From assembly GCA_902595425.1 (NCBI GenBank), contig CACJPV010000005.1, positions 1 to 64,000 on the forward strand: a stretch of 64,000 nt of DNA, read 5' to 3'. Of the stretch, positions 14,013 to 32,219 are shown piece after piece; positions within the stretch are counted from its first letter, which is position 1, and each line of letters opens with the position of its first letter. The position numbers and the translations under genes are program-made. Below the pieces are notes generated by a model that was given only the letters and a program-made list of their open reading frames with translations, was not told where the DNA came from and ran no database searches. This stretch comes from an uncultured Alphaproteobacteria bacterium (GTDB taxonomy: Bacteria; Pseudomonadota; Alphaproteobacteria; HIMB59; GCA-002718135).

Positions 14013-14779
14013 TGAAAGTAAATGAAATTGCATTAACGCTTTATACTGTAAGAAATTTTTGTCAGACGGAAAAAGACCTGCTTAGCACATTAAAAAAAAT
14101 AAAAAAAATTGGTTATAATGCAATTCAAGTAAGTTCTATTGGAGTCATTGACCCTAAGGAAGTTAAAAAAATGTGTGATGATACAGGTTTATCAATTTGT
14201 GCCACACATGAACCCAATGAAGAAATAATTAATAATACTCAAGCTGTTATAGACAAACTTAATATTCTAAATTGTTCTTATACAGCTCTACCGTATCCTA
14301 AGGATATGGATTTTCTTAATTTAAATGTTTTGGATAAGTTTATTGCAGATATCAACAAAGCTGGTTTAGTTTTTAGTAAAGCAGATAAAGTACTTTGTTA
14401 TCACAATCACGCTTTAGAATTTCAAAAAACTAATAACGAAATTATTTTAGAAAGAATATACAATAAAACAGACACTAAATTGATTCAAGGTGAACCAGAT
14501 GTTTACTGGATTCAAAAAGGTGGGCATGATCCTATTAGTTGGTGTAGGCGATTAAAAAATAGATTACCATTAATTCACTTAAAAGACTTTATAATGATTA
14601 ATGAGCATGATAGCTATTACGCTGAGATTGGGAATGGAAATTTAGATATTAAAAATATCATAAAAGAAGCAAAATTATCAGGTTGTAAATGGTACATTGT
14701 AGAACAGGATGAATGCAAAGGTGACCCATTCATTTCTGCAGAAACTAGCTTTAATAATCTTAAAAAGTTTGTTAACTAA
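14012..14779 (+). CDS. Sugar phosphate isomerase/epimerase-like TIM barrel (AP_endonuc_2 fold)
   Basis: A 255-residue xylose-isomerase-like TIM-barrel protein. Metal-site features typical of the family include CYHNHALEFQ (about 130-139), GEPDVYWIQKGG with its Asp, LIHLKDF with its His, and the C-terminal Glu in WYIVEQDE. It is translationally coupled to the Gfo/Idh dehydrogenase, suggesting it acts on that enzyme's keto-sugar product. It ends 8 bp inside the convergent uronate-isomerase-like gene. Whether it isomerises, epimerises or eliminates cannot be told from the sequence. Confidence 0.78.
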   Translation: MKVNEIALTLYTVRNFCQTEKDLLSTLKKIKKIGYNAIQVSSIGVIDPKEVKKMCDDTGLSICATHEPNEEIINNTQAVIDKLNILNCSYTALPYPKDMDFLNLNVLDKFIADINKAGLVFSKADKVLCYHNHALEFQKTNNEIILERIYNKTDTKLIQGEPDVYWIQKGGHDPISWCRRLKNRLPLIHLKDFIMINEHDSYYAEIGNGNLDIKNIIKEAKLSGCKWYIVEQDECKGDPFISAETSFNNLKKFVN

Positions 14780-18041: not shown

Positions 18042-19120
18042 CAAGATTTATTTTTTTTTATTGCTTTTCCATCTGATCCAAATAAGTGCATAGAAGAACG
18101 ATCTAAACGTAAAAATAATTTATCACCTTTTGTAACTTTATATTGACCTGTTTGATGAACAATAAGTTGGGAACCACCTTTTACGTTACAGTAAAAATAT
18201 GTTTCACTTCCTAGTTGTTCGGAATAATCAACTATTACCTCTAAGTCTGACTCTTGTTTTTCACAAATATAAATATGTTCTGGCCTAATGCCTAAAGTAA
18301 AATCTTTATTACTATCAACTTCAATTAAAGATTGTATATTTAAGCATTCAGATTTTAAATTTATTCCATTATTTTCTTTTAAAGATTTAACTTTCATAAA
18401 ATTCATTTTAGGTGATCCTATAAAACCTGCAACAAAAGTATCACTAGGATTATTATATAAGTCTAGGGGTGCTCCTGCTTGAGCAACGTAACCTTCATTA
18501 AGAACAACTATTTGATCAGCTAAAGTCATAGCTTCAACCTGATCATGTGTAACATAAATCATTGTTCCACCAATCTTTTCATGCAAAGCTGATAATTCTT
18601 TTCTCATCGTAACTCTTAACTCAGCGTCTAAATTTGATAATGGCTCATCAAATAAAAAAGCTTTTGGATCTCTTACGATGGCACGCCCGATTGCAACTCT
18701 TTGTCTTTGACCCCCAGATAGAGCTTTTGGTTTTCGTTGTAGGTAGTCTTCAATTTGAAGAAGTTTTGCTGCACTATTAACTTTCTCTTCAATCGTTTTT
18801 TTATCAATTTTTAAATTTTCTAGAGAAAAGGCCATATTTTTATAAACAGACATATGCGGATACAACGCATATGATTGAAATACCATAGCTAGACCTCTTT
18901 CAGAAGCAGGAATATTACTCACTTCTTTTCCTTCAATTAAAATCTCTCCTGAAGTGATTCTTTCTAAGCCTGCTATAATTCTTAAAAGAGTTGATTTTCC
19001 ACATCCAGATGGACCAACTAATACTAGAAACTTACCGCTCTCTACTTTTAAGTCAACTCCGTGAATAACTTCAGTTTGATCATAACTTTTGAATATATTT
19101 TTCAAAACTATTTCAGTCAT
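18041..19120 (-). CDS. Sugar ABC transporter ATPase, MalK/UgpC family
   Basis: A 359-residue ATPase with Walker A GPSGCGKST near 38-46, the LSGGQRQRVAIGRA signature, Walker B AFLFDEPLSNLDAEL and the switch His in YVTHDQVEAMTLAD. The C-terminal third is the TOBE-type regulatory domain of MalK homologues (LGIRPEHIYI near 275). It would power the MalF/MalG-type permeases of this operon. The start overlaps the 2-hydroxyacid dehydrogenase stop by 4 bp. Confidence 0.95.
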   Translation of the reverse strand: MTEIVLKNIFKSYDQTEVIHGVDLKVESGKFLVLVGPSGCGKSTLLRIIAGLERITSGEILIEGKEVSNIPASERGLAMVFQSYALYPHMSVYKNMAFSLENLKIDKKTIEEKVNSAAKLLQIEDYLQRKPKALSGGQRQRVAIGRAIVRDPKAFLFDEPLSNLDAELRVTMRKELSALHEKIGGTMIYVTHDQVEAMTLADQIVVLNEGYVAQAGAPLDLYNNPSDTFVAGFIGSPKMNFMKVKSLKENNGINLKSECLNIQSLIEVDSNKDFTLGIRPEHIYICEKQESDLEVIVDYSEQLGSETYFYCNVKGGSQLIVHQTGQYKVTKGDKLFLRLDRSSMHLFGSDGKAIKKNKS

Positions 19121-20130
19121 TTATCTCTCCTCAGCATTGCCTGATGCGGTTCAGCTCTTTGTAATCTTGTTGGCGGCATACCTTTTAAAATTTGTCTTAT
19201 ATCATCCATCATCATATCTCTAATATTTTTATATGAAAAATGCATAGCTCCAGCTACATGAGATGTGAACAAAATATTTGAATCTTTTCTAAATACAGCA
19301 TTAAAAGGGACAGGTTCTTCAGGAAAAACATCTACTGCTGCTCTAAAAAAATTTTGTTCAGCTAAATTAATAAATTCATCAAAATCTAAAACCTCTGCTC
19401 TACTTACTAAAATTACTGAACTATCTTTTTCTATTAATTTTAATTTATCTTTATTGATAAAACCTTCATTTTCATTTGTAACCCCCGCTAGTATAAAGAT
19501 AAATTGATTAGTAGACATTAGTTTTTCTAAAGAAACGCTTTTAACACCTTGTGACTCTAAATATTCATTTGAAAGCCACGGATCATAAGCAGAAATACTA
19601 CATTTAAAAGGTTTCAAAAGAGGTACTAAACTTTTAGCTAAATTACCAAATCCCACTAATCCAACATTAGAATTAAATAATGTATAAGCCTCTTGATTGC
19701 CTTTAATTCCATACTTCTCTTCAGATTTTAGAAATTTATTATAATTTTGAATAGTACGTCTCGATAGAGAAATTGCATAACCAATACAAGCCTCAGCAAC
19801 CGCAGGTGCCATTGCTGGAGCAGCAGATAAAATATAAATTCCTTTTTTATGAGCTTCTATATAATCAATATTAGGCTCCCAATTACATTTAACATTTATT
19901 ATTGCTTTAAGTTTTTTTGCTTTATCTAATCTTTCTTTGGGCATGCTTGTTTGTCCCACAATAATTTCTACCTCAGGTAGATTTTGTTCTATTTTATCAT
20001 CAGGCGCCCTACTTCCAAAGTGAGTGACTAAATGTGATATTTGTTTTAATTCTTTTTCGACATCTGATGTGAAAACCATTTCTTCATTTCTTGGAAAGGG
20101 GTCAAAAATAATTACAGGTTTATCAGTCAT
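19117..20130 (-). CDS. D-isomer-specific 2-hydroxyacid dehydrogenase family protein
   Basis: A 337-residue NAD-dependent dehydrogenase of the SerA/GhrA type. It shows GLVGFGNLAKSLVPLL as the Rossmann motif, an Arg in LVSRAEVLDF, Glu in DVFPEEPVP and His in SHVAGAM as the usual catalytic triad. The C-terminal tail (about 20 residues, basic) is longer than in small family members. It lies between the MalG-type permease and the ATPase, overlapping both, so it is made with the transporter. A sugar-acid or 2-keto acid product of the imported substrate is the likely target. Substrate unknown. Confidence 0.8.
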   Translation of the reverse strand: MTDKPVIIFDPFPRNEEMVFTSDVEKELKQISHLVTHFGSRAPDDKIEQNLPEVEIIVGQTSMPKERLDKAKKLKAIINVKCNWEPNIDYIEAHKKGIYILSAAPAMAPAVAEACIGYAISLSRRTIQNYNKFLKSEEKYGIKGNQEAYTLFNSNVGLVGFGNLAKSLVPLLKPFKCSISAYDPWLSNEYLESQGVKSVSLEKLMSTNQFIFILAGVTNENEGFINKDKLKLIEKDSSVILVSRAEVLDFDEFINLAEQNFFRAAVDVFPEEPVPFNAVFRKDSNILFTSHVAGAMHFSYKNIRDMMMDDIRQILKGMPPTRLQRAEPHQAMLRRDK

Positions 20131-21194
20131 TATTTCATACCTGTGCTAGCTATCCCAGTTGTTATAAATTTTTGAAGATATGCGAATATTAATGCAATCG
20201 GTAATAGAGTGACCATAGTCATTGCTAAAACATAATTCCATTGACTAGTTAATTCTCCATGAAAAGCATTTAAAGCTATCTGTAAAGTATAAACTTCACT
20301 TTTAGAAAGAACGATCAGAGGCCATAAGAAATCGTTCCATCTCCACATAATAGAGAATATGGCTAACACAGCTATTGCTGGAATAGATAATGGCAAAACA
20401 ATTCGCCAATAAATTGCCCACTCACTTGCATGATCCATTCTAGCCGCTTCGATTAATTCACGTGGTAAAGTTAACATATACTGCCTTAATAAAAAAACAC
20501 CGGTGGGAGTAGCTGCTCCAGGCAAAATGACTCCCCATAAAGAATTTATCATTCCAAAATTTGCAATAACATAAAATACTGGTACTAAAATTATTGTAAG
20601 AGGTATTAGTAAAGTTCCAATTACAAAAACAAGAGCTACTGTTTTTCCTCTAAACTCATAAATAGAAAGAGCATAAGCGGCCATAGAATTAATAATAAGT
20701 GTAATTATTGTGGCAATAACAGTCACAAAAATTGAATTCTTGAAATAAAGAAGAAAATTATATTTTCTTAATGGGTCTAAATAATTACCCCACTGCACAC
20801 TAAACTCTCTAATTTTTTCTCTTTTATCTATAGGAATTTTATATTTTTTTTCTGCATCATTTGGGTCAACCATTTTTGATGTAATCCCCACTCTTTTAAT
20901 TTCAGCTAATTGCGTTTGACTACCATCATCTAATGTAACATTATACAAAGATAGCGGCTTATCATATCCATCAACCTCAACTTGTATTTGAGAAAGTGGA
21001 AGAATTGTTGGAGGATACTCCTGAATACCAGCATTAGTTTTTACTGACGATAAACCTAGCCAAATAATCGGACCAAACATTAAAAAAACACCTAAGAATA
21101 AATAGAAATATGAAAAATAATCTGTCCAATGATACTTCTCTTTGTATTTTTTTTGTGTAACGATATCTTTGATTATATTTGTTGAACTATTCAT
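20130..21194 (-). CDS. Sugar ABC transporter permease, MalG/CUT1 type, with long periplasmic insert
   Basis: A 354-residue permease with an N-terminal helix (about 24-50), a non-membrane stretch of roughly 90 residues, and five further helices. The EAA loop reads ELIEAARMDHASEWAIYWRI. CUT1 MalG-like permeases are usually 275-300 residues, so the stretch between helix 1 and helix 2 (about residues 53-140) is an insertion. It may contact the binding protein. The gene abuts the MalF-type gene and overlaps the dehydrogenase gene as TAATG. Confidence 0.92.
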   Translation of the reverse strand: MNSSTNIIKDIVTQKKYKEKYHWTDYFSYFYLFLGVFLMFGPIIWLGLSSVKTNAGIQEYPPTILPLSQIQVEVDGYDKPLSLYNVTLDDGSQTQLAEIKRVGITSKMVDPNDAEKKYKIPIDKREKIREFSVQWGNYLDPLRKYNFLLYFKNSIFVTVIATIITLIINSMAAYALSIYEFRGKTVALVFVIGTLLIPLTIILVPVFYVIANFGMINSLWGVILPGAATPTGVFLLRQYMLTLPRELIEAARMDHASEWAIYWRIVLPLSIPAIAVLAIFSIMWRWNDFLWPLIVLSKSEVYTLQIALNAFHGELTSQWNYVLAMTMVTLLPIALIFAYLQKFITTGIASTGMK

Positions 21195-22226
21195 TTAAAT
21201 CTCTTGGTGTTTAGTTTCTTTATTTCTTCCTAAAAACAATTGAATCAATGTTAAACATAATAATACAATTCCTAAAACCATAGATGCAGCAGCAGCAAGA
21301 CCAAAGTTTTGTACAGATCCAGAAGATGCAAAACCTGTTGTAAAAATATATTGAACAATCAAAGAAGTGGAGGTTCCTGGACCGCCACCAGTAAGAACAT
21401 ATATTTCATCAAAGGTCTGAACTCCTTTGATTGAAGCGAGTATAAATACAACGAGTAAATTTGGCATTAAGAGTGGAAGCGTTATTCTAAAAAAAGTTCT
21501 TTCTGTGCTCGTTCCATCCATTTCAGCAGCTTCATATAAGTTAGGTGGAATTGCTTGAAGTCCAGCTAAAACAATTAATGTATAAAAACCCATATGCGCC
21601 CATATTGAAACAAATATACTTGATGTCATTGCCCAACCAGGATCAGTAAGAAAAGAAAATTTATCTCCACCATTAGCTTCAATAACTGCATTTAGTATCC
21701 CATTTTTTAATAGTATCCATTGCCAAATTAAACCAACAACTACGGGCGATAACAAAACTGGGAAAAAGAAAACTGATCTAAAAAAACCTCTACCAATAAT
21801 TTTTTTATTTAAAATTACTGCTGTGAGTAAAGAAAAAAAAATCATTAAACCAACCTGAAAGATAACAAAAAAAATAGTGTTGTATACACCTCTCCAAAAG
21901 AAATCTTCTTTACATGTATTAGGATTTAAATAACTTTCACAATTGAATAAATCATTATAATGTTTAGATCCTGAAAATTCTCTATCAGCAAAAAGTAGCT
22001 CATCACCACCTGTGATCGAGAAAGCTACATTTACACCAAGTGGTATAATTACAAACAGTCCAAAGAAAATTAAATTTGGAAGTAAAAAAATATAAGGCAT
22101 GTTTCTAACACCAATTATTTTTTGAATTGGCCACATGATAATATCAATAGTATGCATTAAAAAGCCAAAAGGAATTTTAAATATAGTTATAAAAAAATTT
22201 TTAATTTTTGATCTTATATTTTTCAT
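21195..22226 (-). CDS. Sugar ABC transporter permease, MalF/CUT1 type
   Basis: A 343-residue permease with about six to seven helices. The EAA motif is LYEAAEMDGTSTERTFFRIT near residues 222-241, followed by ITLPLLMPN. It forms the transmembrane channel with the MalG-type subunit encoded immediately downstream without any gap. The gene starts 70 bp after the binding-protein gene, a gap that contains a long hairpin. Confidence 0.93.
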   Translation of the reverse strand: MKNIRSKIKNFFITIFKIPFGFLMHTIDIIMWPIQKIIGVRNMPYIFLLPNLIFFGLFVIIPLGVNVAFSITGGDELLFADREFSGSKHYNDLFNCESYLNPNTCKEDFFWRGVYNTIFFVIFQVGLMIFFSLLTAVILNKKIIGRGFFRSVFFFPVLLSPVVVGLIWQWILLKNGILNAVIEANGGDKFSFLTDPGWAMTSSIFVSIWAHMGFYTLIVLAGLQAIPPNLYEAAEMDGTSTERTFFRITLPLLMPNLLVVFILASIKGVQTFDEIYVLTGGGPGTSTSLIVQYIFTTGFASSGSVQNFGLAAAASMVLGIVLLCLTLIQLFLGRNKETKHQEI

Positions 22227-22245
22227 TTAATTTTAAAATTAAAGT

Positions 22246-22276
22246 AAAAAGCTGCTCAATAAATGAGCAGCTTTTT
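22246..22276 (-). terminator. Intrinsic terminator-like hairpin after sugar-binding protein gene
   Basis: AAAAAGCTGCTCA and TGAGCAGCTTTTT form a 13-bp stem around a five-base loop, with U-runs on either strand. It lies between the binding-protein stop and the MalF-type start. Transcription from the binding-protein promoter should partly stop here, so binding protein would exceed permease. Confidence 0.88.
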
Positions 22277-22296
22277 TTATATTTAAGATAAGTTAA

Positions 22297-23571
22297 TTAT
22301 CCGCCGTATTTTTCTTTTAGTTGTTTTTCAACATCCTCATCCATTTTAACCCAAGCTTCTTCAAGAGACATCTCTCCAACAATAGCTTGACCCAATCTAG
22401 AAATGATAGCGTTAAACATAATACGGTTATCAACATGTGCCTGTAGATCAAATGCAACTTGATCAATAGTAGGAACAGCACCTGCAAAAGTTTCAAGTGC
22501 GTGTTTTGCATTTGGATCGTCAGTTTGATAATCAACAGGTAGGTCTAGGTGTCCTGGAATTGCAAGAACCTCTCCAATAAAAGCACCTAATTGCTCTTTG
22601 CTTGAAAGATAGTCCATTACTTTTCCAACTGCATCATTTGCAGTGAAAGCTAATAAAGCGTTACCACCTGGCATTCCAGTACATGCAGCTGGGCCACATG
22701 GAGCAGGAACTGCCCACCAATCAAAATCATCACCAACTTCGTTAGCAAATCTTCCAATTTGCCAAGATCCACTCATCATGAAAACAACTTCAGCTGCATT
22801 CCACCAATCATTTGGTGCGTGATACTTTGTGCCAGACACAGAACCCCAAAGATCTTTTGACATAGTTCCATCTTGGTGCCAGTCATAAAGCATTTGTGTC
22901 ATAGCTTTTAATCCATCATCAACTAATTTTGGATCACCGTTAGCATCAAAATATTTTGCACCCATAGAAACTGCAGGACCGGACACACGGTGACCAGATC
23001 TATCCCAAGCCATTGGAATTGGAATATCTAATTTACTTGCAACTGCATTAGCTGCATCTGCCCATTCAGCCCAAGTTGCTCCAGGACCAAGAAGATCTAC
23101 ACCTGCTTGTTCAAATAAAGTTTTATTTACGTAAGGACCAGTTACAGTCATCGTGGAGTGAAAACCATGAATTGAGCTTGTATCTCCAGCCTTACGATAC
23201 CATTTTAAGAATGGTCCAAAACTATCCTCGTAGTATTGTGGATTTGCAACATGAGGAGTGATATCTGCATAATATTTATTCAGACCACCAAGATCTGTAA
23301 CTCTTGCGATATCTGGCCCTTCACCAGCTGCTAATTGAATAGGTAAAGTGTTCATAATTGCATCGTAAGGAACGATATCAAGTATGACATTAATATCAGG
23401 ATTAGCTGCATTAAACGCATCTATTTGTCCTTGCATTGGAACATTTTCTTTATCTCCATCGCCATACCACATGATTCTTACATCAGTAGCTGCGAAGGAA
23501 ACTGCAGAAATTAATGTCAATGAGATTGTTATTAAAGCAACAGATATTGCTTTAAAAAAATATTTAATCAT
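22297..23571 (-). CDS. Periplasmic sugar-binding protein, SBP family 1
   Basis: The 424-residue precursor has a signal peptide ending near SFAATD (cleavage about residue 27). The mature protein starts with DVRIMWYGDG and has the family-1 features DIARVTDLGGL and a Trp-rich region (WAEWADAANA). It delivers a mono- or oligosaccharide to the MalF/MalG-type permeases. The start has a GGAGGA site. Its operon carries two Gfo/Idh dehydrogenases, and the divergent operon encodes a YihT/LacD-like aldolase and an isomerase, so sulfosugars and sugar acids are both candidate ligands. Confidence 0.92.
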   Translation of the reverse strand: MIKYFFKAISVALITISLTLISAVSFAATDVRIMWYGDGDKENVPMQGQIDAFNAANPDINVILDIVPYDAIMNTLPIQLAAGEGPDIARVTDLGGLNKYYADITPHVANPQYYEDSFGPFLKWYRKAGDTSSIHGFHSTMTVTGPYVNKTLFEQAGVDLLGPGATWAEWADAANAVASKLDIPIPMAWDRSGHRVSGPAVSMGAKYFDANGDPKLVDDGLKAMTQMLYDWHQDGTMSKDLWGSVSGTKYHAPNDWWNAAEVVFMMSGSWQIGRFANEVGDDFDWWAVPAPCGPAACTGMPGGNALLAFTANDAVGKVMDYLSSKEQLGAFIGEVLAIPGHLDLPVDYQTDDPNAKHALETFAGAVPTIDQVAFDLQAHVDNRIMFNAIISRLGQAIVGEMSLEEAWVKMDEDVEKQLKEKYGG

Positions 23572-23818: not shown

Positions 23819-24838
23819 ATGAAAATAAATACAATAGGCAAATATGTGCATATTAAAAAAATATGTAATGATAATCACCATTTAGAAATGCTAGCTATTG
23901 ATCAAAGACCACCAATCTTTAATATTATTAAAAAAAAGAAAAAGAATTATAATTTTGATGATGTAGTTGATTTTAAAAAACAAATATCTCAAAGCTTGTC
24001 TAAACACTCTAGTGCTATTTTAATGGATCCAGTTTATTCAATTCCAAGGCTGTTAAATACTAGCCAATCTAATGGATTAATAATTACACTAGAAGATCAT
24101 TTATTTGCTGAAAAAGGAAAAGGAAGATATTCAAAAAATATTCAAAATTGGACTGTTGAAAAAATAAAGAAAATAGGTGGTGATGCTGTCAAAGTACTTG
24201 CATGGTATCGACCAGATAGTGATAAAAAATCTATTCAACATCAAAAAAAATATATTGAAAATGTTGGTAAGCAATGTGAAAAATACGATATACCTTTTTT
24301 ACTTGAGCTATTAGTTTACCCTTTTAAAAATGAGATAGGCTATTCTAAAGATTATAAAGAACAACAAGGTAAAGATCATAATCATGTTATAGATAGTGTT
24401 AAAGAATTTTCTAAATCAAAATATAAAGTTGATATTTTTAAATTAGAAAGTCCTGTAGATAGCACAAAGTTAGAGAATGATAAATTTTCAAAAGAAACAG
24501 AAAAAGCTTTTAAACAATTGTCTATTGCAACAAGAAATATTCCATGGGTAATGCTATCTTCGGGAATGAGTAAAAAATCTTTTTATAATTGTTTAAAATT
24601 AGCATATAAAAATGGTGCCTCTGGATACCTCGCTGGTAGAACAATATGGCTTGATGCATTTAGGGATTACCCAAATAATTTAAAAATTAAAAAAAATCTT
24701 AATAAAGAAAGTGTAAATTATATAAAAAAATTAAACTTACTTACTAAAAATAAAGCGAGGTCTTTAAAAAGTTATTTAAAAAATAATTTTGTAAAAAAAG
24801 AATCAATAAACTTTAAAAATACGTATAAAGGTTTTTAA
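23819..24838 (+). CDS. Class I aldolase, YihT/LacD family (sulfofructose-1-phosphate or tagatose-bisphosphate aldolase type)
   Basis: A 339-residue Schiff-base aldolase. MLAIDQRPP is at 24-32, HSSAILMDP at 63-71, GGDAVKVLAWYRPD at 120-133, the Schiff-base Lys208 in VDIFKLESP, SSG at 247-249 and Arg274 in GASGYLAGRTIW. The last two elements match, as I recall them, the Ser226 and Arg253 regions that hold the substrate sulfonate/phosphate in E. coli YihT. The GASG-LAGR form is closer to YihT than to LacD, while the middle (QCEKYDIPFLLELLVYPF) is LacD-like. It is coupled (TAATG) to a sugar isomerase. Products would be DHAP plus an aldehyde. Tagatose or fuculose phosphates remain alternatives. 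Confidence 0.72.
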   Translation: MKINTIGKYVHIKKICNDNHHLEMLAIDQRPPIFNIIKKKKKNYNFDDVVDFKKQISQSLSKHSSAILMDPVYSIPRLLNTSQSNGLIITLEDHLFAEKGKGRYSKNIQNWTVEKIKKIGGDAVKVLAWYRPDSDKKSIQHQKKYIENVGKQCEKYDIPFLLELLVYPFKNEIGYSKDYKEQQGKDHNHVIDSVKEFSKSKYKVDIFKLESPVDSTKLENDKFSKETEKAFKQLSIATRNIPWVMLSSGMSKKSFYNCLKLAYKNGASGYLAGRTIWLDAFRDYPNNLKIKKNLNKESVNYIKKLNLLTKNKARSLKSYLKNNFVKKESINFKNTYKGF

Positions 24839-26217
24839 TGATTGGTTGTCTAAGTTTAGCAAGAGAAACATTTGATATTGAGTTTGCTAAGAAGAAATTA
24901 GTAAAAACAAAAAAAATACTAAAAAAATTAAATAAAAATATTAGTTTTTTTGATGATTTAATAACAAATGATAAAATAGGTGAAGAAGCAGTAAATTTTT
25001 TTAATAAAATAAACTGTTCAAGATTTATTGTTATTCAATCAACTTTTACTGATGCAAAATTTATTTCTTCATTTGTTAAAAAATTTAAGAAACCAATATT
25101 ATTTGTATCATTTAAAGAAAAAAGAACAGGAGGACGCTTAAGACTTAATTCTCTTTGTGGAATTAATTTAGGATTGCATGCATTAATCAAAAATAAATTT
25201 TATTCAAATTTTATAATTCACTCAAATAATGAAGAAGCTTTTACAAAAGAAGTTTTAAAGTTTATAAAAAATAAAATTTTTTTTAAGAAAATAAATTATT
25301 TTAAAAAACTACCAAATTCAAAAAAAATTCAAAAAAAATCAATTGAATTTAAACAACCAAAAATTGGTATAATTGGAGAAAGACCAGAAGGTTTTGATAC
25401 ATGCGATTTTAACAGTAAAGAACTAAAAAACAAATTTAATGCTAAGTTAGCAAATATTAATCTAGAAAAATTATTTGATATCTCAAGTAATATTGAAAAA
25501 AAAACAATTAATTTAACAAAAAAAAATATCAGCAATAATCTAAAAAATATAAATAAATTAAATCAAAAAGAATTAAATAAAAGTATATCTTTATTCCACG
25601 GACTTGAAAAATTACATGAAAAACAAAAAATTGATGCTTTTGCTGTTCGGTGTTGGCCAGAAATGTTTACAGAGTATGGTTGTGCTTCATGTGGACCAAT
25701 GGCCATGATGAACGAAAAAAAAATAAGTGCTGCATGTGAGGCCGATGTTCTTGGAAGTTTGAGTTGTAATATATTAAATCAACTAAATAATAAACCTGCT
25801 TTACTTGTAGATATTGTCGATGTTGATGAGAAAGACAACACTACAGTTTTTTGGCATTGTGGACTAGCTCCTCTCAGTATGGCTGAAAAAAATACACCTA
25901 GTGCTACTGTACACTCGAATAGAAGAAAACCACTTCTTCATAACTTTGCATTTAAAGCTGGTGAAATTACAATCTTTCGAGTTTCAAAATCAGAAAATAA
26001 ATTAAAATTTATTTTAATGAGGGGAAAAGTACTTAAAAGAAAAAACTCCTTTTCTGGAACATCAGGTGTAATAAGTTTAGGTCCAAATACATTCAAGAAA
26101 ATTAAAAATTTATTTTTAAGTGGTCTTGAGCATCATGTAAGCTTTACTTATGGCGATGTGATTGAAGATATTAAAAGTCTAGGAAAGCAGTTAAGAATTC
26201 CGACATATACAATATGA
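24838..26217 (+). CDS. L-fucose/L-arabinose isomerase-like ketol isomerase
   Basis: A 459-residue protein of the FucI/AraA-like fold. The C-terminal half carries CWPEMFTEYGCASCG (Glu275), CEADVLGSLSC (Glu301/Asp303) and VFWHCGLAP (His340), a pattern typical of fucose-isomerase-like enzymes and their Mn site. The N-terminal 260 residues are Lys-rich and poorly conserved. It sits between the aldolase and a Gfo/Idh dehydrogenase, overlapping both (TAATG before, ATGA after). With the YihV-like kinase it could supply the ketose to be phosphorylated and cleaved. The true aldose, sulfonated or not, is unknown. Confidence 0.68.
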   Translation: MIGCLSLARETFDIEFAKKKLVKTKKILKKLNKNISFFDDLITNDKIGEEAVNFFNKINCSRFIVIQSTFTDAKFISSFVKKFKKPILFVSFKEKRTGGRLRLNSLCGINLGLHALIKNKFYSNFIIHSNNEEAFTKEVLKFIKNKIFFKKINYFKKLPNSKKIQKKSIEFKQPKIGIIGERPEGFDTCDFNSKELKNKFNAKLANINLEKLFDISSNIEKKTINLTKKNISNNLKNINKLNQKELNKSISLFHGLEKLHEKQKIDAFAVRCWPEMFTEYGCASCGPMAMMNEKKISAACEADVLGSLSCNILNQLNNKPALLVDIVDVDEKDNTTVFWHCGLAPLSMAEKNTPSATVHSNRRKPLLHNFAFKAGEITIFRVSKSENKLKFILMRGKVLKRKNSFSGTSGVISLGPNTFKKIKNLFLSGLEHHVSFTYGDVIEDIKSLGKQLRIPTYTI

Positions 26218-27302
26218 GTGAAACTATAAAATATGGAATAATTGGAACTGGTGTAATGGGCCAAGAACATATTCAGAATATAAATCTAATTAAGAATGCA
26301 GAAGTAGTAGCAATTTGTGATACGAATGAAGGTTCTAGAAACAAAGCTAAATCATTAGTGAAAGAGTCAACAAAATTTTACAATAGTTTAAATGAATTAA
26401 TAAGTACAAATATTGCAGATGCTTATATTATTGCTACACCTAATTTTACACACATAGATGTATTAGAACAAATTTTAAAAACAAATAAACATTTGTTAAT
26501 TGAAAAACCGCTATGCACAATTACTGAGGATTGTAAAAAATTTCAGACACTTTCAAAAAACTATTCAAAGATAATTTGGACTGGGATGGAATACAGATAC
26601 ATGCCCCCCGTAAAAAAATTAATTGAAGAAATTCATAACAATGTAATTGGTAAAATAAAAATGCTATCTATTCGTGAACATCGATTTCCTTTTTTACACA
26701 AAGTTGATGATTGGAATAGATTTTCTGTTAACACGGGAGGTACATTAGTTGAAAAGTGTTGTCACTTCTTTGACTTGATGCGACTCGTTATTCAAAGTGA
26801 GCCAATCAAAGTTTATGCGAGTGGAAATCAGGATATTAATCATTTAGATGAAAAATATAATGGTAAAACTCCGGACATTTTAGATAACGCTTTTGTAATT
26901 GTAGATTTTGAAAACGGTGTTCGTGGAATGCTTGATTTATGTATGTTTGCAGAAAATTCAGAATACCAAGAAGAGATTGTTGCTGTTGGTGATTTGGGAA
27001 AAATTGAAACTTTTGTTCCATCAAGTGCTTCAGGGAGAGACTCTTCAGAAGTTAGAATTGGTATGCGAAAAGATAATTTTACTAAATCAATAGAAGTAAA
27101 AGTTGATAAAGAAATTTTATTAGCAGGCCATCACCACGGCTCAACTTACTATGAACATCTAGCTTTTATAAATTCTATTTTAAACAATAAAAAACCAGAT
27201 GTATCTCTAAGAGATGGATTAATGTCAGTTGCTATTGGTGAGGCAGCTGAAAACTCAATCAAAGAAAACAGAGTTGTATTTATGAAAGAGTTAAATCTAT
27301 AA
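26214..27302 (+). CDS. Gfo/Idh/MocA-family NAD(P) oxidoreductase
   Basis: A 362-residue protein with GIIGTGVMGQEHIQN near 8-22, the EKPLCT motif near 97-102 and GGTLVEKCCHFFDLM with the conserved His. It is coupled by ATGA to the isomerase gene. The family acts on sugars, inositols and sugar-like carbonyls, so it may convert a glycoside or a related sugar into the isomerase substrate. Its last 6 bp overlap the convergent hydroxyacid dehydrogenase gene. Confidence 0.82.
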   Translation: MSETIKYGIIGTGVMGQEHIQNINLIKNAEVVAICDTNEGSRNKAKSLVKESTKFYNSLNELISTNIADAYIIATPNFTHIDVLEQILKTNKHLLIEKPLCTITEDCKKFQTLSKNYSKIIWTGMEYRYMPPVKKLIEEIHNNVIGKIKMLSIREHRFPFLHKVDDWNRFSVNTGGTLVEKCCHFFDLMRLVIQSEPIKVYASGNQDINHLDEKYNGKTPDILDNAFVIVDFENGVRGMLDLCMFAENSEYQEEIVAVGDLGKIETFVPSSASGRDSSEVRIGMRKDNFTKSIEVKVDKEILLAGHHHGSTYYEHLAFINSILNNKKPDVSLRDGLMSVAIGEAAENSIKENRVVFMKELNL

Positions 27303-28220
27303 ATTAAAAAATTCTTTTACGGCATTAGCTATAAAGTCACTGACTCTTATATTAGACTCTTCAGTCACTCCTGCAACATGGGGTGTGAGTAAGCAATTTG
27401 TATTATTTTTTATTTTATCTAAAAAAGATTTAGGCACAGGCTCTGCATTATAAACATCAAGAGCAAATCCAGATATTAGTTTTTCATCATAAGCTCTTAT
27501 TAAATCTTCTTCATTAACTATGGACCCTCGAGAAGAATTAATGATAACAGGATGTTTTAACATTTTCTTAAAAGCGCTATAATTTAATAAATTTCTTGTA
27601 TCTTCATTAAGAGGCAAATGAATTGAAATTATATCTGACATTCTAAAAACATCATTTATATCATGTAATTTAGTATCAAATTGATTACCAACGCTTGGAT
27701 CAAGATATGGATCGTAAGCAATGATTTTTACATCAAAAACTTTAGCTAAAATAGATACTTTTTTTGCAATTAAACCAAAACCCAGTAAACCAATCGTTTT
27801 ACCTTTGAGTTCTCTTGAAGTAATTGAGGTTCGAGGCCAATTTGCCATCAAAGTTTCTTGATGCATTAAGGGAATATTTTTTAATAATGTAAGAGATGCA
27901 TTAATTACATATTCTGCAACAGAGTTGGCATTCATTCCTGTAGCTGGCTGCACATGAATATTATGATTTTTACAATACTCAGTATCTATATTATCAAGAC
28001 CTACACCTAAACGTCCAACAAATTTTAGATTATGAGCCTTCTCTAGAACTTTTTTATTAACTTGTGTTTTATTCCTTACAATTAAAGCATCAAAACTATT
28101 AATTATTTTTTTTAATTCATCAATATTTGTTGATAGATCATGATCAACGGTAACATCAAAATTTAATTTAAGCATCTCAACACATTTGATATCCATAAAT
28201 TCAGTTATCAAAATTTTCAT
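27297..28220 (-). CDS. 2-hydroxyacid dehydrogenase, (S)-sulfolactate dehydrogenase (SlcC)-like
   Basis: A 307-residue SerA-type dehydrogenase. The Rossmann motif is near 144-152 (GLLGFGLIA), with Arg231, Glu260 and His281 as catalytic residues. The opening ITEFMD and the stretch DALIVRNKTQV near 44-54 look like proteins annotated as (S)-sulfolactate dehydrogenase, which oxidise sulfolactate to sulfopyruvate. This resemblance is recalled, not computed. The context is strong: it is the last gene after the two sulfopyruvate decarboxylase subunits and a YihV-like kinase. A phosphoglycerate or hydroxypyruvate role is the fallback. Confidence 0.68.
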   Translation of the reverse strand: MKILITEFMDIKCVEMLKLNFDVTVDHDLSTNIDELKKIINSFDALIVRNKTQVNKKVLEKAHNLKFVGRLGVGLDNIDTEYCKNHNIHVQPATGMNANSVAEYVINASLTLLKNIPLMHQETLMANWPRTSITSRELKGKTIGLLGFGLIAKKVSILAKVFDVKIIAYDPYLDPSVGNQFDTKLHDINDVFRMSDIISIHLPLNEDTRNLLNYSAFKKMLKHPVIINSSRGSIVNEEDLIRAYDEKLISGFALDVYNAEPVPKSFLDKIKNNTNCLLTPHVAGVTEESNIRVSDFIANAVKEFFNL

Positions 28221-28224
28221 AAAA

Positions 28225-29130
28225 CTATATTTCCTTTAATTGTATTTTTTTTACAAACTTTTTAACAGATGAAAGTTTAGGTAATGAATAGATTCCTCCA
28301 TTTTTAGTACATTTTAAGGAAGCTGTTGCTGTGGCTAGTTTCATAGTATTTTGCAAAGAATACTTTTGATGAATAAAAGTTGCAAAAGCTCCATGGAAGA
28401 CATCTCCTGCACAATTTGTTTCAACAACTTTTATTTTTGGAGGTTTACAATTAAAAATTAAACCATTTTCAATCCAATAAACTCCTTTTTCACCAGCCGT
28501 TATTGCATAAAATTTATTTTTTATTGAATACATTTTCTTTAATGAGCCAACAATTGAGTTAATTTTTGTATATTCAAATGCTCCTGTCTCAGAAAAAATA
28601 AGATGAGAGGATAAATCAATTATTTGTTTAATTTTTGTGTTTAATTTATAATTATCAAGATCGACAACATGATTTAATTTTTTTTTATTGCAAGTTTTGG
28701 ATATATAAAGAGTTGCTTCAACCCATCTCAAATCAGACATGATTGTTGTACATTTTTCAAATGAGATTTTAGGTAATTTTTTATTATTAACTAATTTTTT
28801 CTCACTAAAAGCAGCCAAGAGTCTTTCTCCTTTTTTATCCTCGTAAACAAAACTTTGTGATGATTGAGCCCCTTTAATTGTAATAATATTATCATGTTTA
28901 ATTTTAAATTTTTTTAACTCTCTTCTTAAATATTTAGAAGCATCATCATCTCCCAACCTGCCAATAAATGAAGTATTCATTCCAAGTTTTTTTATGGTAA
29001 AACTTGCAACTGCTGCAGAACCTCCAAGTCTTTTTTCTATCCCATGTGCAAGAACTTTAACTGGTTTTTTTGGGAAAGTATCAATTTTAACAATATGATC
29101 TAGAAAGACTGATCCTACGCAAATAATCAT
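28225..29130 (-). CDS. PfkB-family kinase resembling sulfofructose kinase YihV
   Basis: A 301-residue ribokinase-fold kinase. The GGSAAVA substrate motif is at 36-42, IGRLGDDDAS at 56-65, and the anion-hole and catalytic Asp motif is CAGDVFHGAF near 249-258. Features shared with E. coli YihV as I remember it are SSQS followed by DKKGER, SDLRW with Arg135 at the place of the sulfonate-binding Arg138, FSETG, GDVFHGA and ASLKCTKNGG. The residue matching YihV Asn109 is Ala here. It would phosphorylate 6-deoxy-6-sulfofructose. Its neighbours SlcC-like and ComE/ComD support a sulfonated substrate. Adenosine- or fructose-kinase-like activity is the alternative. Confidence 0.7.
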   Translation of the reverse strand: MIICVGSVFLDHIVKIDTFPKKPVKVLAHGIEKRLGGSAAVASFTIKKLGMNTSFIGRLGDDDASKYLRRELKKFKIKHDNIITIKGAQSSQSFVYEDKKGERLLAAFSEKKLVNNKKLPKISFEKCTTIMSDLRWVEATLYISKTCNKKKLNHVVDLDNYKLNTKIKQIIDLSSHLIFSETGAFEYTKINSIVGSLKKMYSIKNKFYAITAGEKGVYWIENGLIFNCKPPKIKVVETNCAGDVFHGAFATFIHQKYSLQNTMKLATATASLKCTKNGGIYSLPKLSSVKKFVKKIQLKEI

Positions 29131-29151
29131 TATTAGATTATATATTAAAAA

Positions 29152-29721
29152 TTAGAGGTAAGGAACTAAACCTATTACTTTTCGAAATCGATCCCTTATT
29201 GTAACAGCATTTAGTGGTATTGGTTTTATTGGCACATTACCTGATTGTATTTTAGAAATAATAACATACGAATTATTTTTATCAGCTAACGCTTTCTTTA
29301 AGTTTTCATCTGTTTCTTCGCCAGAGCACTCTATGACATTTTTACATCCAGCCCCAATAGCAACATCTTTCAATGAGGTGCTCTCATTAGTAAATGTTTT
29401 TTGATCTCCAGTAGAGCCATAAGAACCATTATCCACTATTAGAAGAGTATAGTTTGAAGGCGCTCTATTACCAATAGTTGCGAGTGTGTTCATATTCATT
29501 AAAACTGAACCATCACCATCAATACTAATAACATTTCTATCAATTGCTAAGGAAAGACCTAAACCAATTGATGATGCTAAACCCATACTGCCTAACATAT
29601 AAAAATAATTTGGACTGTCGTTAATTTTATATAATTCTTGTGAGGGAAGACCGATGTTGCATATAACCAATTCATCCTTAATCGTTTCTTTCAAAAGATT
29701 TAATAATTCAAATCTATTCAT
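29152..29721 (-). CDS. comE: Sulfopyruvate decarboxylase, beta (TPP-binding) subunit
   Basis: A 189-residue thiamine-diphosphate protein. GSMGLASSIGLGLSLA at 44-59, GDGS at 69-72 and Asn98 in VDNGSYGSTGDQ form the TPP/Mg motif, and the length matches ComE of methanogens and bacterial sulfopyruvate decarboxylase beta chains. With the alpha subunit, encoded 2 bp upstream, it converts sulfopyruvate to sulfoacetaldehyde and CO2, feeding Xsc. Phosphonopyruvate decarboxylase is the closest alternative, but that is normally a single fused chain. Confidence 0.85.
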   Translation of the reverse strand: MNRFELLNLLKETIKDELVICNIGLPSQELYKINDSPNYFYMLGSMGLASSIGLGLSLAIDRNVISIDGDGSVLMNMNTLATIGNRAPSNYTLLIVDNGSYGSTGDQKTFTNESTSLKDVAIGAGCKNVIECSGEETDENLKKALADKNNSYVIISKIQSGNVPIKPIPLNAVTIRDRFRKVIGLVPYL

Positions 29722-29723
29722 CT

Positions 29724-30221
29724 TTAATCATCCTTCATTAAATTAAAATTACAAAGTATGGCGACAGGACTTTCAATTACTTTTGCGTGATTAGTAAAGG
29801 TAGATATTTTATCTAGATCATCTTCGGTATTACAATGAAGCATAGGTATGCGAAGGGTATTCAGTATATCTTCAGTGACGCTTGCCATTCCACCCTGAGC
29901 TCCAACTGGCTCTCCAGAAGTTCCTCTATAGCTTATCAAGAAAACAACTGGTATTTGGTATAACTGAAGAAGAGAAACAATAGAATTAACAGAGTTACCA
30001 ATCCCGGTGTTTTGCATCATAATGCAGGGAAGTTTATTTCCTAAATATGCGCCAGCACAAATGCCCATTCCTTCTTCCTCTCTAGGTATAGCTGAATAAT
30101 AAATATCTTTATCATTCTCTAAAATGGAGATCATGTTTGCTAAAAGCTTACATGGGACACTTAAAAAAAAGTCAGACCCACCTTCTTTTAGGTTAGTAAC
30201 AATTTTTTGGCTTATTTTCAT
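29724..30221 (-). CDS. comD: Sulfopyruvate decarboxylase, alpha subunit
   Basis: A 165-residue pyrimidine-domain thiamine-diphosphate subunit. SVPCKLL (21-27), IPREEEGMGICAGAYLG (45-61) with the activating glutamate, and MMQNTGIGNSVNS (68-80) closely match ComD. It forms the active decarboxylase with ComE. The start at 30221 follows a 49-bp gap after the mutarotase gene, the widest gap inside this leftward run, so a second promoter there is possible. Separate alpha and beta genes in this order distinguish it from fused phosphonopyruvate decarboxylases. Confidence 0.86.
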   Translation of the reverse strand: MKISQKIVTNLKEGGSDFFLSVPCKLLANMISILENDKDIYYSAIPREEEGMGICAGAYLGNKLPCIMMQNTGIGNSVNSIVSLLQLYQIPVVFLISYRGTSGEPVGAQGGMASVTEDILNTLRIPMLHCNTEDDLDKISTFTNHAKVIESPVAILCNFNLMKDD

Positions 30222-30270
30222 GGTATATGATTAATACTTAAATAAAAACTTAAGACAAGATTTTATTTTT

Positions 30271-31320
30271 TTAAAAATCATTGCGTAATTTAATTTTTAT
30301 TTTTGATAAATAATTTTTATTTTTTCTTAAGATTGGAGTTGGAAAATTTGATTGATTTACTGCATCTGGATAATTTTGCGGCTCTAAACACATCCCATAT
30401 TGTATCCCATATGATTTATTTTGCTTACCGACATAATTATCTAGCATCATATTACCCGTATAAAATTGAATTCCTTGTTGGTTGGTAAAATATTCAACAC
30501 CCATTTTAGTTTTTTTGCTATAAATTTTTGCAATTGGAGACTTCATAGATTGATCTTCTAAAACATAGTTATGATCAATGCCTCCAGAATCTAAAAATTC
30601 TCTATCTATTATAAAAGATTTTCTTAAATCAAACTTTGTACCTGATACTTTTAAAAGATTACCTGTTGGAATAGATCCCTGATCAGTTTCGCATATTTCA
30701 TCAGAGATTATTTGCACAACATGATCCTCATTATTTTGGTAATAACTTTGATGTCCATGAAAATTCCAATAATTATGATTGGTAAGATTAACTATTGTGT
30801 CTTGATCTGTTGTTGCATGAAACTCAATAGAAAGTTCATTGTGATTATTTAATTCATAAATTACTTTACAATCAAGATTTCCAGGATAATTTTCTTCCAT
30901 ATCAGGCGAAAGATAACTTAAAACACATTTCGTAGAGTCTGTTTTTTCTTCTATATTATCAATATTCCAAATTTTTTTATTAAAACCAGTTTTGCCACCA
31001 TGTAGATGATTTGGTGGGGTATTTGCATATAGTTTATAATCTTTATCATCTAATGAAAACTGAGCACCCCCTATTCTATTAGCAACTCTTCCAACTATAG
31101 AATTAAAATACCCATTTGAATTTAGAACACCATCAACATCTCCATAACCCAGAAGAACATCCTCAGTTATTTCTTCCCTGTTAAGATAAGGAATATGAAC
31201 CTCATGAATATATCCTCCATAAGTATAAAATTTATAACTAAAATTATTATCATTTACTACTTCAACTGACTCAATAGGAAGTGCAGCAGGATTTTCTATT
31301 TTGTCTTGATTAATTTTCAT
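30271..31320 (-). CDS. Aldose 1-epimerase (GalM family)
   Basis: A 349-residue mutarotase. GRVANRIGGAQFSLDD, the catalytic-region His in HLHGGKTGF, the second His in LTNHNYWNFHG and the C-terminal Glu in MCLEPQNYP are all present. I start it at the ATG at 31320, which overlaps the transporter stop as TAATG. An open frame extends 36 codons further upstream, but that part lies inside the transporter gene and has no epimerase similarity. Sulfosugar clusters of the yih type include a mutarotase of this superfamily (YihR), so placement beside a YihV-like kinase is suggestive. Galactose or glucose are ordinary alternatives. Confidence 0.88.
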   Translation of the reverse strand: MKINQDKIENPAALPIESVEVVNDNNFSYKFYTYGGYIHEVHIPYLNREEITEDVLLGYGDVDGVLNSNGYFNSIVGRVANRIGGAQFSLDDKDYKLYANTPPNHLHGGKTGFNKKIWNIDNIEEKTDSTKCVLSYLSPDMEENYPGNLDCKVIYELNNHNELSIEFHATTDQDTIVNLTNHNYWNFHGHQSYYQNNEDHVVQIISDEICETDQGSIPTGNLLKVSGTKFDLRKSFIIDREFLDSGGIDHNYVLEDQSMKSPIAKIYSKKTKMGVEYFTNQQGIQFYTGNMMLDNYVGKQNKSYGIQYGMCLEPQNYPDAVNQSNFPTPILRKNKNYLSKIKIKLRNDF

Positions 31321-32219
31321 TACGCTTTTCTGTCTCTTGTTTTTATAGAATTTTTTTGACGAAGATAGATGATTATTCCACCAGCAACAATAAATAAAGC
31401 TCCAGGAAACAATTGATCGACTGGCCATTCTCTAAAGAATATCCATCCTAAGATTAAAGCAAAAAATATTTCGATATAATCAAATGGCATGATTTTACTT
31501 AACTCTGCTTTTCTTGCACCATATATCAGTAGTAAAGTTCCAGTTCCACCTGCCAAACCCATAAGAAAGAAAATAAATAAATCATTTACACTTTTAAAAT
31601 TTTCCCACATCCCAAAAGTTAACACTAATATTAATGATACGCTGATTGTTCCAACTTGACCGTAAATATTAATTAATGGTGTTGGAACATCCATTGTAAA
31701 ACTTAAAGAAGTAACCCTAGCTAGGGCGTAACCCAAAGCTGCTATAACTGGTAATAAAATCATATAATTAAAATCAGATGACCAAGGTTCCATAATAAGA
31801 ACAATACCTATAAAGCCAGATATAACCGCAGATGTTTTAAACCATCCAAATTTTTCTCCAAGAATAGGCACACTTAATAGTGTCACCATCATAGGACCTG
31901 TATATTCCATCGTAGCTACAAGGGCAAAAGGCAAATATAAATATGAAGTATATAAACAAAGCTGAGCTAACGCTACAAAAGCTCCTCGAACAAAGCCTAA
32001 TCGCCATTGTTTAATTTTAATTTTTCTTCCATTTTGATGCCAGTCGGTTGAAAAATAAAGAGCAATAAAACAGGGGATCATTCCAAAAAGATTTCTGAAA
32101 ACAGACAATTGTGCTGCTGGGTAATCATTTCTTAAAAACTTGATGGCAATACCCATACAGTCCATCAAAAATAATCCTGAAAGTGATAAAGCAACTGCTA
32201 GTAATAAATTATGTTTCAA
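31320..32219 (-). CDS. EamA/DMT-family transporter
   Basis: A 299-residue membrane protein with about ten helices arranged as two EamA repeats. The start is a TTG at 32219. An in-frame stop lies immediately upstream and the next Met (residue 19) would remove most of helix 1, so TTG is favoured. It begins 4 bp after the oligopeptide-type ATPase gene and overlaps the mutarotase gene. In this operon it may export a sulfonate end product or metabolite, but EamA substrates cannot be predicted from sequence. Confidence 0.85.
   Translation of the reverse strand: MKHNLLLAVALSLSGLFLMDCMGIAIKFLRNDYPAAQLSVFRNLFGMIPCFIALYFSTDWHQNGRKIKIKQWRLGFVRGAFVALAQLCLYTSYLYLPFALVATMEYTGPMMVTLLSVPILGEKFGWFKTSAVISGFIGIVLIMEPWSSDFNYMILLPVIAALGYALARVTSLSFTMDVPTPLINIYGQVGTISVSLILVLTFGMWENFKSVNDLFIFFLMGLAGGTGTLLLIYGARKAELSKIMPFDYIEIFFALILGWIFFREWPVDQLFPGALFIVAGGIIIYLRQKNSIKTRDRKA

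Follow-up and report, generated by a model that had tools for sequence, protein, structure and literature searches.

A predicted sulfoquinovose cassette beside a resident sulfopyruvate decarboxylase locus in uncultured Alphaproteobacteria

INTRODUCTION

Sulfoquinovose (SQ) has been ranked among the most abundant organosulfur compounds (PMC12890257). By published accounts, sulfoglycolytic bacteria excrete sulfonates that pass to partner species, and a 2025 paper regards it as unusual for one bacterium to combine sulfoglycolysis with biomineralisation (PMC12421959). Here we analyze a stretch of 64,000 nucleotides from an uncultured, probably marine alphaproteobacterium, tentatively assigned to order HIMB59 (AEGEAN-169) by names such as MarineAlpha5_Bin5 (positions 1 to 64,000 of contig CACJPV010000005.1, assembly GCA_902595425.1; hereafter, the window), in which a predicted sulfoglycolytic cassette lies directly beside comE and comD, the genes for sulfopyruvate decarboxylase. 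An initial annotation of this DNA had proposed that one bacterium could mineralise SQ completely.

In Arthrobacter sp. AK01/AK04, the sulfoglycolytic Embden-Meyerhof-Parnas (sulfo-EMP) pathway resembles the set predicted in the window in its reported isomerase, PfkB-type kinase (YihV), class I aldolase (YihT), glycoside hydrolase family 188 (GH188) enzyme SqgA, and ATP-binding cassette (ABC) importer, but the isomerase is of the YihS type, GabD is encoded in the cluster, and sulfolactate (SL) is excreted (PMC8873060, PMC10755693). In the window, by contrast, the isomerase is SqvD/SftI-like, the cluster has no GabD, and SlcC-like and ComDE genes follow. The sulfo-EMP2 and hybrid clusters, as reported, share with the pathway predicted for the window an SqvD-type isomerase and dihydroxyacetone phosphate (DHAP) and sulfolactaldehyde (SLA) as products; sulfo-EMP2 uses a PF00365 kinase and a class II aldolase (PF01116) and stops at SL or 2,3-dihydroxypropane-1-sulfonate (DHPS), whereas the window has a PfkB kinase and a class I aldolase (PMC9594981, PMC12890257). 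The lower half, from SL through sulfopyruvate and sulfoacetaldehyde to Xsc, is the one described for Roseovarius nubinhibens, and no SQ genes figure in that description (PMC6278857).

The tandem sulfofucolytic-sulfolactate sulfolyase pathway of Paracoccus wurundjeri is, like the one predicted for the window, reported to take a sulfosugar to sulfite in one bacterium via S-SLA, S-SL, and SlcC, but its sugar is sulfofucose, its upper part is of the Entner-Doudoroff type, and the lyase SuyAB stands in place of ComDE-Xsc (PMC12421959). Extended sulfoglycolytic transaldolase (sulfo-TAL) clusters with SuyAB in Thermotogae and Chloroflexi have been suggested to combine sulfoglycolysis and desulfonation in one genome, the transaldolase and SuyAB being the differences (PMC9594981). 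The sulfoquinovose monooxygenase and dioxygenase (sulfo-SMO/SDO) pathways share with our proposal the complete use of SQ in one cell but are described as cutting the C-S bond on SQ itself with an oxygenase (PMC12890257, PMC13372026). Among the papers listed in searches of the open-licence PMC literature on sulfoquinovose or sulfofructose, none was seen to describe sulfo-EMP joined to ComDE-Xsc. The parts of the locus are ordinary and the assembly is unusual, a predicted form of extended (tandem) sulfoglycolysis.

RESULTS

Two converging gene runs

The source genome (84% completeness, 0.36% contamination, 39 contigs) carries the window on contig C5, of 87,958 bases. When the interval 23819-31320 was re-read with tools, each gene named there in the initial annotation proved to be an open frame, as did those named elsewhere in the window, so that aldolase, isomerase, kinase, GalM, SlcC-like dehydrogenase, ComDE, Pta, HpsN-like protein, and Xsc are all present. 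Two runs converge inside the interval. The plus-strand run reads aldolase, isomerase, and a Gfo/Idh/MocA protein, and the minus-strand run reads GalM (start at 31320), ComD, ComE, PfkB kinase, and a 2-hydroxyacid dehydrogenase ending at 27297. The first three genes and the last two form a five-gene cassette, 23,819-29,130, directly beside comE-comD. Gene presence, residues, synteny, and the insertion site with and without the cassette were read directly from the sequences compared.

23819..24838, plus strand: class I (DeoC/LacD) aldolase, predicted sulfofructose-1-phosphate aldolase (Pfam, NCBIfam, YihT alignment)
24838..26217, plus strand: SqvD/SftI (fucose-isomerase-like) isomerase, predicted sulfoquinovose isomerase (NCBIfam SftI match below cut-off, fold, residues)
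26214..27302, plus strand: GH188 NAD-dependent sulfoquinovosidase homologue, SqgA (solved-structure matches, residues)
27297..28220, minus strand: 2-hydroxyacid dehydrogenase, predicted S-sulfolactate dehydrogenase, SlcC (family match, gene context)
28225..29130, minus strand: PfkB kinase, predicted sulfofructose kinase (YihV as best solved relative, residues)
29152..29721, minus strand: ComE, sulfopyruvate decarboxylase beta, resident locus (TIGR03846)
29724..30221, minus strand: ComD, sulfopyruvate decarboxylase alpha, resident locus (TIGR03845)
30271..31320, minus strand: GalM-type aldose 1-epimerase, resident locus, possible SQ mutarotase (family matches, relatives without the cassette)
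31320..32219, minus strand: EamA-type transporter, resident locus (family match, relatives)

For GalM, the listed open reading frame (ORF) spans 30271-31428; the ATG at 31320 yields 349-350 amino acids, as in relatives, and matches the end of the interval.

A variable cassette at a resident galM-comDE locus

We compared 25 same-genus genomes (source genome included) and 16 genomes of another family of the same order. ComE is present in 20 of the 25 and in none of the 16 (one 19-bit match was ignored); Xsc, at 87% identity or more, is present in 19 of the 25 (once in two pieces) and again in none of the 16, where only weak thiamine pyrophosphate-enzyme matches appeared. The isomerase (>50% identity) occurs in 14 same-genus genomes, including three partial copies and one contig-edge fragment, and these carriers include 13 with ComE and 10 with Xsc.

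Five relatives show the insertion site without the SQ cassette. A conserved agmatinase-like gene abuts comE in G001, G004, and G015, with no gene of 140 amino acids or more between them, and the gap holds only an aldo-keto reductase in G011 and only UxuA in G024. In G020, G021, G022, and G023, the agmatinase and comE borders enclose the SQ cassette together with other sugar genes; between 598 and 23571, the gene order of the window is that of the G023 island, the window's left border lying beyond the contig start. The kinase genes beside comE in G005 and G012 end at or near a contig end. Because the agmatinase-comE site is seen both with and without the cassette, the SQ cassette counts as a variable insert, which brings the SlcC-like gene with it, and galM-comDE as the resident locus. 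An upper pathway that includes a predicted S-sulfolactate dehydrogenase of its own has thus joined a sulfopyruvate decarboxylase already in place, which is the most telling result of this analysis.

In four relatives (AG-892-A10, AG-891-K21, AG-892-I02, and AG-911-C02), which we take to be single-cell genomes, the isomerase, ComE, an HpsN-like protein (47-48% identical to the window's), and Xsc are encoded on one contig; a close class I aldolase is absent from all four.

Co-occurrence beyond the genus

A genome scan confirmed at least 243 isomerase relatives, and 80 of them were examined in stretches of up to 10 kb either side, with bit thresholds that we set. From record titles and similarity, these loci were assigned to 46 closely related alphaproteobacterial (clade) loci, 9 of SUP05/Thioglobus type, 3 SAR116-like (counting L117, which has no SAR116 title), and 22 others; L037-L044, from the same genomes as some of L045-L124, were kept out of these counts and retained in the residue rows, which required a best-query match, a passed bit threshold, and a length above 80%. 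A GH188 homologue above 300 bits accompanies the isomerase in 72 of the 80 loci, the kinase in 74, and an SlcC-like gene in 68, a co-occurrence that exceeds chance. Clade loci hold GH188 (46), SlcC-like (45), kinase (44), ComD (44), and ComE (44); SUP05/Thioglobus-type loci hold GH188 (9), kinase (8), SlcC-like (8), and aldolase (7); and all three SAR116-like loci hold GH188, kinase, aldolase, and SlcC-like genes.

ComDE lies in the cluster in 44/46 clade loci and 2/22 others but in 0/9 SUP05/Thioglobus-type and 0/3 SAR116-like loci. The pairing of SQ genes with ComDE characterises this clade and two Rhodobacteraceae; in other groups, many cassettes hold an SlcC-like gene with no ComDE in the vicinity. 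The two are the uncultured Rhodobacteraceae SRR5468194_bin.239 (L109), with the order kinase-aldolase-isomerase-GH188-GalM-GabD-2-hydroxyacid dehydrogenase-ComD-ComE, and Marivivens sp. YM.5 (L122), with the same order; both genomes also hold Xsc at 74%, plus the ComE. Among 15 other cassette genomes, Xsc is found at 71-83% in six, and five gammaproteobacterial ones (L061, L063, L073, L082, and L083) have an Xsc-like protein at 45-46%.

Two further sets were seen. SUP05/Thioglobus-type loci L063, L073, L076, L078, L079, L082, and L083 combine aldolase-isomerase-GH188 with SlcC-like and kinase genes and have no ComDE nearby. Plasmid pZZM402 of the laboratory ethanologen Zymomonas mobilis ZM4 (NC_013785.1, 32957-33853 and 128-11361; L188, L190, and L191) bears a sulfo-EMP-like set of PfkB kinase, class II aldolase, aldose epimerase, isomerase, GH188, major facilitator superfamily transporter, TonB receptor, and a GabD-like gene; its isomerase is 35% identical to the window's, and its GH188 protein, at 50%, has all eight of the SqgA residues considered below.

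Upper-pathway enzymes

The initial annotation saw no sulfoquinovosidase, yet a GH188 homologue lies inside the same interval, at 26214-27302. Its protein scores 375 bits to FlSqgA (8qc2), 371 to ArSqgA (8qc3), and 349 to 8zn9, which is named only as an oxidoreductase, and the next solved chain scores 104, so that full-length similarity to SqgA is well above that to other Gfo/Idh/MocA proteins. In the paper that founded GH188, whose tested members cleave SQ glycosides, the residues of ArSqgA reported to hold SQ or to act in catalysis are K107, Y136, R166, L170 (backbone), K172, E189, H193, and H321 (PMC10755693). The window protein retains all eight types, as K98, Y127, R157, L161, K163, E180, H184, and H307. 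They were mapped by hand by way of FlSqgA (8qc2), whose numbering differs from that of ArSqgA by a constant 13, and they recur in 80/80 aligned rows from the fetched loci, window included. By these matches the gene encodes a GH188 NAD-dependent sulfoquinovosidase homologue predicted to release SQ, and since it sits in the interval with the eight SqgA residues, that gap is closed.

The sole NCBIfam match of the isomerase is the sulfoquinovose isomerase SftI, at 303.6 bits (cut-off, 700). In an AlphaFold2 model built from 13 sequences (predicted local distance difference test score, 82.7), all 41 Protein Data Bank matches at E≤0.001 are arabinose or fucose isomerases, at a template modeling score of about 0.5 and with poor overall superposition. 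E301, D325, H432, and H433, presumably metal ligands, are kept in 82/82 rows. The earlier label of a fucose-type isomerase holds for the fold and needs correcting in that the only curated match is to an SQ isomerase; with this match below its cut-off and an arabinose/fucose isomerase fold, the protein is of the SqvD/SftI kind but distant.

For the kinase, YihV (7ag6) is the best solved relative at 143 bits, ahead of 114 bits to a chain named only as a sugar kinase and 62 to ribokinase. K25 is present in 86/86 rows and R135 in 78/86; if YihV residue roles are as we presume, two of three sulfonate contacts are kept. The aldolase matches the class I DeoC/LacD family of Pfam (92.5 bits) and NCBIfam PRK12858 (320.6 bits; cut-off, 184) and is 26% identical to YihT over 274 columns, although it is closer to the DUF2090 protein 8tnf (258 bits) and to tagatose-bisphosphate aldolases (132) than to YihT (64). 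Its Lys208 and Arg274 correspond to YihT K193 and R253, whose numbering and roles we assume, in 38/38 aligned rows, YihT included. Family and residues together mark a class I aldolase with a putative Schiff-base lysine.

The three enzymes are predicted to form a hybrid sulfo-EMP1/2 set, and such sets have been reported, in Proteobacteria (PMC12890257, PMC9594981). Class II aldolases (PF01116) occur in 36 of the 41 genomes and might conceivably replace the class I enzyme in relatives, as the Zymomonas plasmid cluster suggests. SQ cassettes L038-L044 (G007, G021, G019, G022, G018, G023, and G010) have no class I aldolase match in the locus and no close one in the genome.

Lower-pathway enzymes

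The remaining genes lie further right, on the same contig as the upper-pathway genes.

45779..46690, plus strand: Pta, phosphate acetyltransferase, PTA_PTB family (family matches)
48495..49781, plus strand: HpsN, R-DHPS 3-dehydrogenase (match to solved HpsN)
62984..63979, minus strand: Xsc, sulfoacetaldehyde acetyltransferase, running past the window to C5:64759 (NCBIfam)

The best NCBIfam match of the 2-hydroxyacid dehydrogenase is phosphoglycerate dehydrogenase, below cut-off, and since no curated SlcC match was found, its SlcC identity rests on context. Homologues at 38-42% identity occur on Paracoccus and Methylobacterium plasmids; four of eight matching regions were examined, one of them without annotation, and in 3/3 annotated regions the gene adjoins a ComC-like Ldh gene and a sulfite/sulfate exporter, with a SuyAB-like UxaA pair alongside in 2/3. 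The cassette enzyme is predicted to fit the S-sulfolactate expected from SQ. Further along the SlcC-ComDE-Xsc pathway, ComD scores 156.2 bits against TIGR03845 (cut-off, 147.95), ComE 218.4 bits against TIGR03846 (3.1 bits under the cut-off of 221.5), and the whole xsc gene (C5:62984-64759), of which the window holds the C-terminal part, 956.2 bits (cut-off, 676.4), so that all three are recognized; the ComD of L109 and the ComE of L122 score above their cut-offs. ComDE, GalM, and Xsc also occur without the SQ cassette in relatives, which weakens the simple reading that all these genes are dedicated to SQ.

Oxidation of sulfolactaldehyde

The remark that no dedicated SLA dehydrogenase was in view is true of the cassette, and a GabD candidate lies elsewhere in the genome. 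Nine of the 12 aldehyde dehydrogenase (PF00171) matches in the genome were compared (L004, L013, and L014 were left out), and only GabD at 134 kb of contig C1 (G000:C1) has both arginines proposed as sulfonate contacts in Rhizobium leguminosarum GabD (RlGabD; PMC10599462). The equivalent pair binds succinate semialdehyde in the human succinate-semialdehyde dehydrogenase. C1 GabD is 51-54% identical to four in-cluster GabDs (L102, L108, L109, and L122) and is the best candidate for this step. Ruegeria pomeroyi GabD-2 is reported to oxidise SLA (PMC11131964), and P. wurundjeri makes SL though its SLA dehydrogenase is, by its published account, also not identified (PMC12421959); with these precedents, absence from the cluster is not fatal.

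A second candidate aldehyde dehydrogenase, at C1:355 kb (L007), is 65% identical to one about 5.6 kb beyond the kinase in gammaproteobacterial L061, but Leu and Asn replace the RlGabD arginine pair. HpsN (524 bits to solved HpsN and 248 to HisD) was rejected as the default SLA dehydrogenase, since CpHpsN is reported as R-specific, consuming only 48% of racemic SLA (PMC11382572), and SQ yields S-SLA.

Import and sulfite handling

A transporter divergent from the aldolase gene is a possible route of entry.

18041..23571, minus strand: sugar ABC transporter genes, candidate importer of SQ or SQ-glycerol (several relatives have orthologues next to the isomerase)

It comprises a solute-binding protein (22297-23571; no solved relative at 1e-10), two permeases, and an ATPase, with a 2-hydroxyacid dehydrogenase gene (19117-20130) among them.

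A check of the genome for a sulfite oxidase or exporter, as the initial annotation had advised, turned up SoeABC-like genes and TauE-like permeases outside the C5 cassette. At about 180-186 kb of G000:C1 (L184, 4077-9583), a TauE-like permease gene adjoins genes for a 975-amino-acid molybdopterin protein, an Fe-S subunit, and a DmsC-type anchor, and two further TauE-family genes occur in the genome. Among the 120 large-subunit homologues in the matches listed, two are named SoeA and at least three formate dehydrogenase; the operon is likely, not certainly, SoeABC. It lies near genes of molybdenum-cofactor type. The aprA gene of AprAB sulfite oxidation was not found in this 84% complete genome. 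The window's CysN/C, CysD-size, and CysQ-like genes (49778-53349) might conceivably have a part in dealing with sulfite.

DISCUSSION

The scheme that we favor assigns each reaction by homology. SQ-glycerol would be imported by the ABC transporter and SQ freed by the GH188 homologue; the isomerase would convert SQ to sulfofructose, the kinase would make sulfofructose-1-phosphate, and the aldolase would split this into DHAP and S-SLA. An aldehyde dehydrogenase outside the cassette, with C1 GabD the best candidate, would yield S-SL, which SlcC would oxidise to sulfopyruvate. ComDE would then form sulfoacetaldehyde, and Xsc acetyl phosphate and sulfite, the latter being oxidised or exported by the SoeABC-like complex and TauE-like permeases. 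On this view, a core that already mineralised sulfonates would have acquired SQ catabolism through the addition of an upper pathway together with its SlcC. The genetic potential for SQ mineralisation in one cell is well supported, and with it the chain from SLA through SL, sulfopyruvate, and sulfoacetaldehyde to acetyl phosphate and sulfite that had been proposed for one cell: the upper genes lie on a single contig with those for ComDE, HpsN, Pta, and Xsc, as the isomerase, ComE, HpsN-like, and Xsc genes do in the four relatives named above. That the cassette does turn SQ glycosides into DHAP and sulfopyruvate, with ComDE, Xsc, and Pta carrying the product on to sulfite and acetyl-CoA in the same cell, we consider somewhat probable.

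Several observations weigh against this scheme. The isomerase is far below the SftI cut-off, and the kinase has Ala107 where YihV has Asn (Asn109). A close class I aldolase is found in just 2/25 same-genus genomes and 6/46 clade loci, a problem for the scheme in the other cassette-bearing relatives. Eight of the 80 loci have no GH188 homologue above 300 bits in the stretch, two of them having one at 226-235 bits. There is no aldehyde dehydrogenase among the cassette genes and no PF00171 match on contig C5 (a YihU-type reductase was not searched for genome-wide), and C1 GabD reaches 683 bits to the succinate-semialdehyde dehydrogenase of Escherichia coli but 577 to the solved SLA dehydrogenase of R. 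leguminosarum. Cassette-free relatives also have ComE and Xsc, so these enzymes have other inputs (DHPS and taurine); 4 of the 14 isomerase carriers in the genus, in incomplete genomes, show no Xsc; and ComE is found in the 15 other cassette genomes at 56% in two and at 34-38% in three, so the ComDE coupling is not general.

Part of this evidence would also fit partial use, in which sulfo-EMP ends in excreted SL or DHPS and ComDE and Xsc serve only DHPS and taurine. The cassette's lack of an SLA dehydrogenase and the cassette-free occurrence of ComE and Xsc in the genus point that way, as do reports that characterised sulfo-EMP bacteria excrete their product (PMC8873060, PMC12890257). However, a pathway ending in SL needs no SlcC-like gene, and one is present in 45/46 clade loci, beside the kinase, which is itself beside comE; the two Rhodobacteraceae runs, moreover, end in SlcC-ComD-ComE. 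On balance, partial use appears unlikely. More doubtful still is an ordinary sugar substrate of the tagatose, fuculose, or arabinose type, with the comDE adjacency an accident of a sugar-gene hotspot. The NCBIfam label of the aldolase, tagatose 1,6-diphosphate aldolase, the arabinose/fucose isomerases among the best folds for the isomerase, and the presence in the island of mannonate-type genes and of others we take to be fucose-type would suit such a substrate, but the GH188 protein has the sulfonate-binding Arg and Lys in 80/80 rows, the isomerase and kinase have SftI and YihV as sole curated match and nearest solved relative, respectively, and co-occurrence holds across four locus groups. 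Another sulfosugar, such as sulfofucose, is if anything slightly less credible as the true substrate: its bacterial catabolism is known (PMC12421959) and the isomerase reaches just 304 bits to SftI, but the described route is Entner-Doudoroff like, with the SfcF dehydratase and not a kinase and aldolase (PMC12421959), and the GH188 members reported as tested cleave SQ glycosides (PMC10755693).

Both halves of the proposed pathway share one locus in a clade with many uncultured relatives, and the pathway is distinct from the sulfolytic route that Roseobacters are reported to use. If single-cell use of SQ is the correct reading, the path that SQ sulfur takes in the open ocean becomes directly testable. 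A broader proposal, to which we give an even chance, concerns streamlined bacteria of the surface ocean, namely this clade and, judging from related cassettes, SUP05 and SAR116: their SQ module would be swappable and would attach to a resident core for mineralising C2/C3 sulfonates, and SQ sulfur would be returned to sulfite and sulfate by single cells, not by cross-feeding pairs. The module would carry its own stereospecific SlcC adaptor because SQ yields S-sulfolactate and the resident HpsN route is R-specific.

Other genes in the window

No Rfam match was obtained in the window at gathering thresholds. A sugar island at 598-15980, which belongs to the agmatinase-comE hotspot, holds an amidohydrolase, an enolase-superfamily dehydratase, an aldo-keto reductase, an ABC importer, UxuA, an ORF that we take to be mannitol-dehydrogenase-like, and Gfo/Idh proteins. 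Beside UxuA, 9604-10653 matches ureidoglycolate dehydrogenase (208.9 bits) and L-sulfolactate dehydrogenase ComC (206.3 bits) of NCBIfam, both far below cut-off. A sulfatase-superfamily protein (38698-40227; PehA, 447 bits, cut-off 900) adjoins peptide-type ABC transporter genes of the resident locus, and 53398-56649 encodes a Rieske-type oxygenase that resembles glycine-betaine monooxygenase (score below cut-off) and, after it, an FMN/NAD(P)H oxidoreductase. A second region of sulfonate and sulfate-activation genes, 43191-53349, begins with alanine dehydrogenase, an AptA-type omega-aminotransferase, Pta, a short-chain dehydrogenase/reductase, and HpsN and continues, at 49778-53349, with a fusion of GTPase and adenosine 5'-phosphosulfate kinase (CysN/C type), a 3'-phosphoadenosine 5'-phosphosulfate-reductase-domain protein of CysD size, and an inositol-phosphatase-family (CysQ-like) protein.

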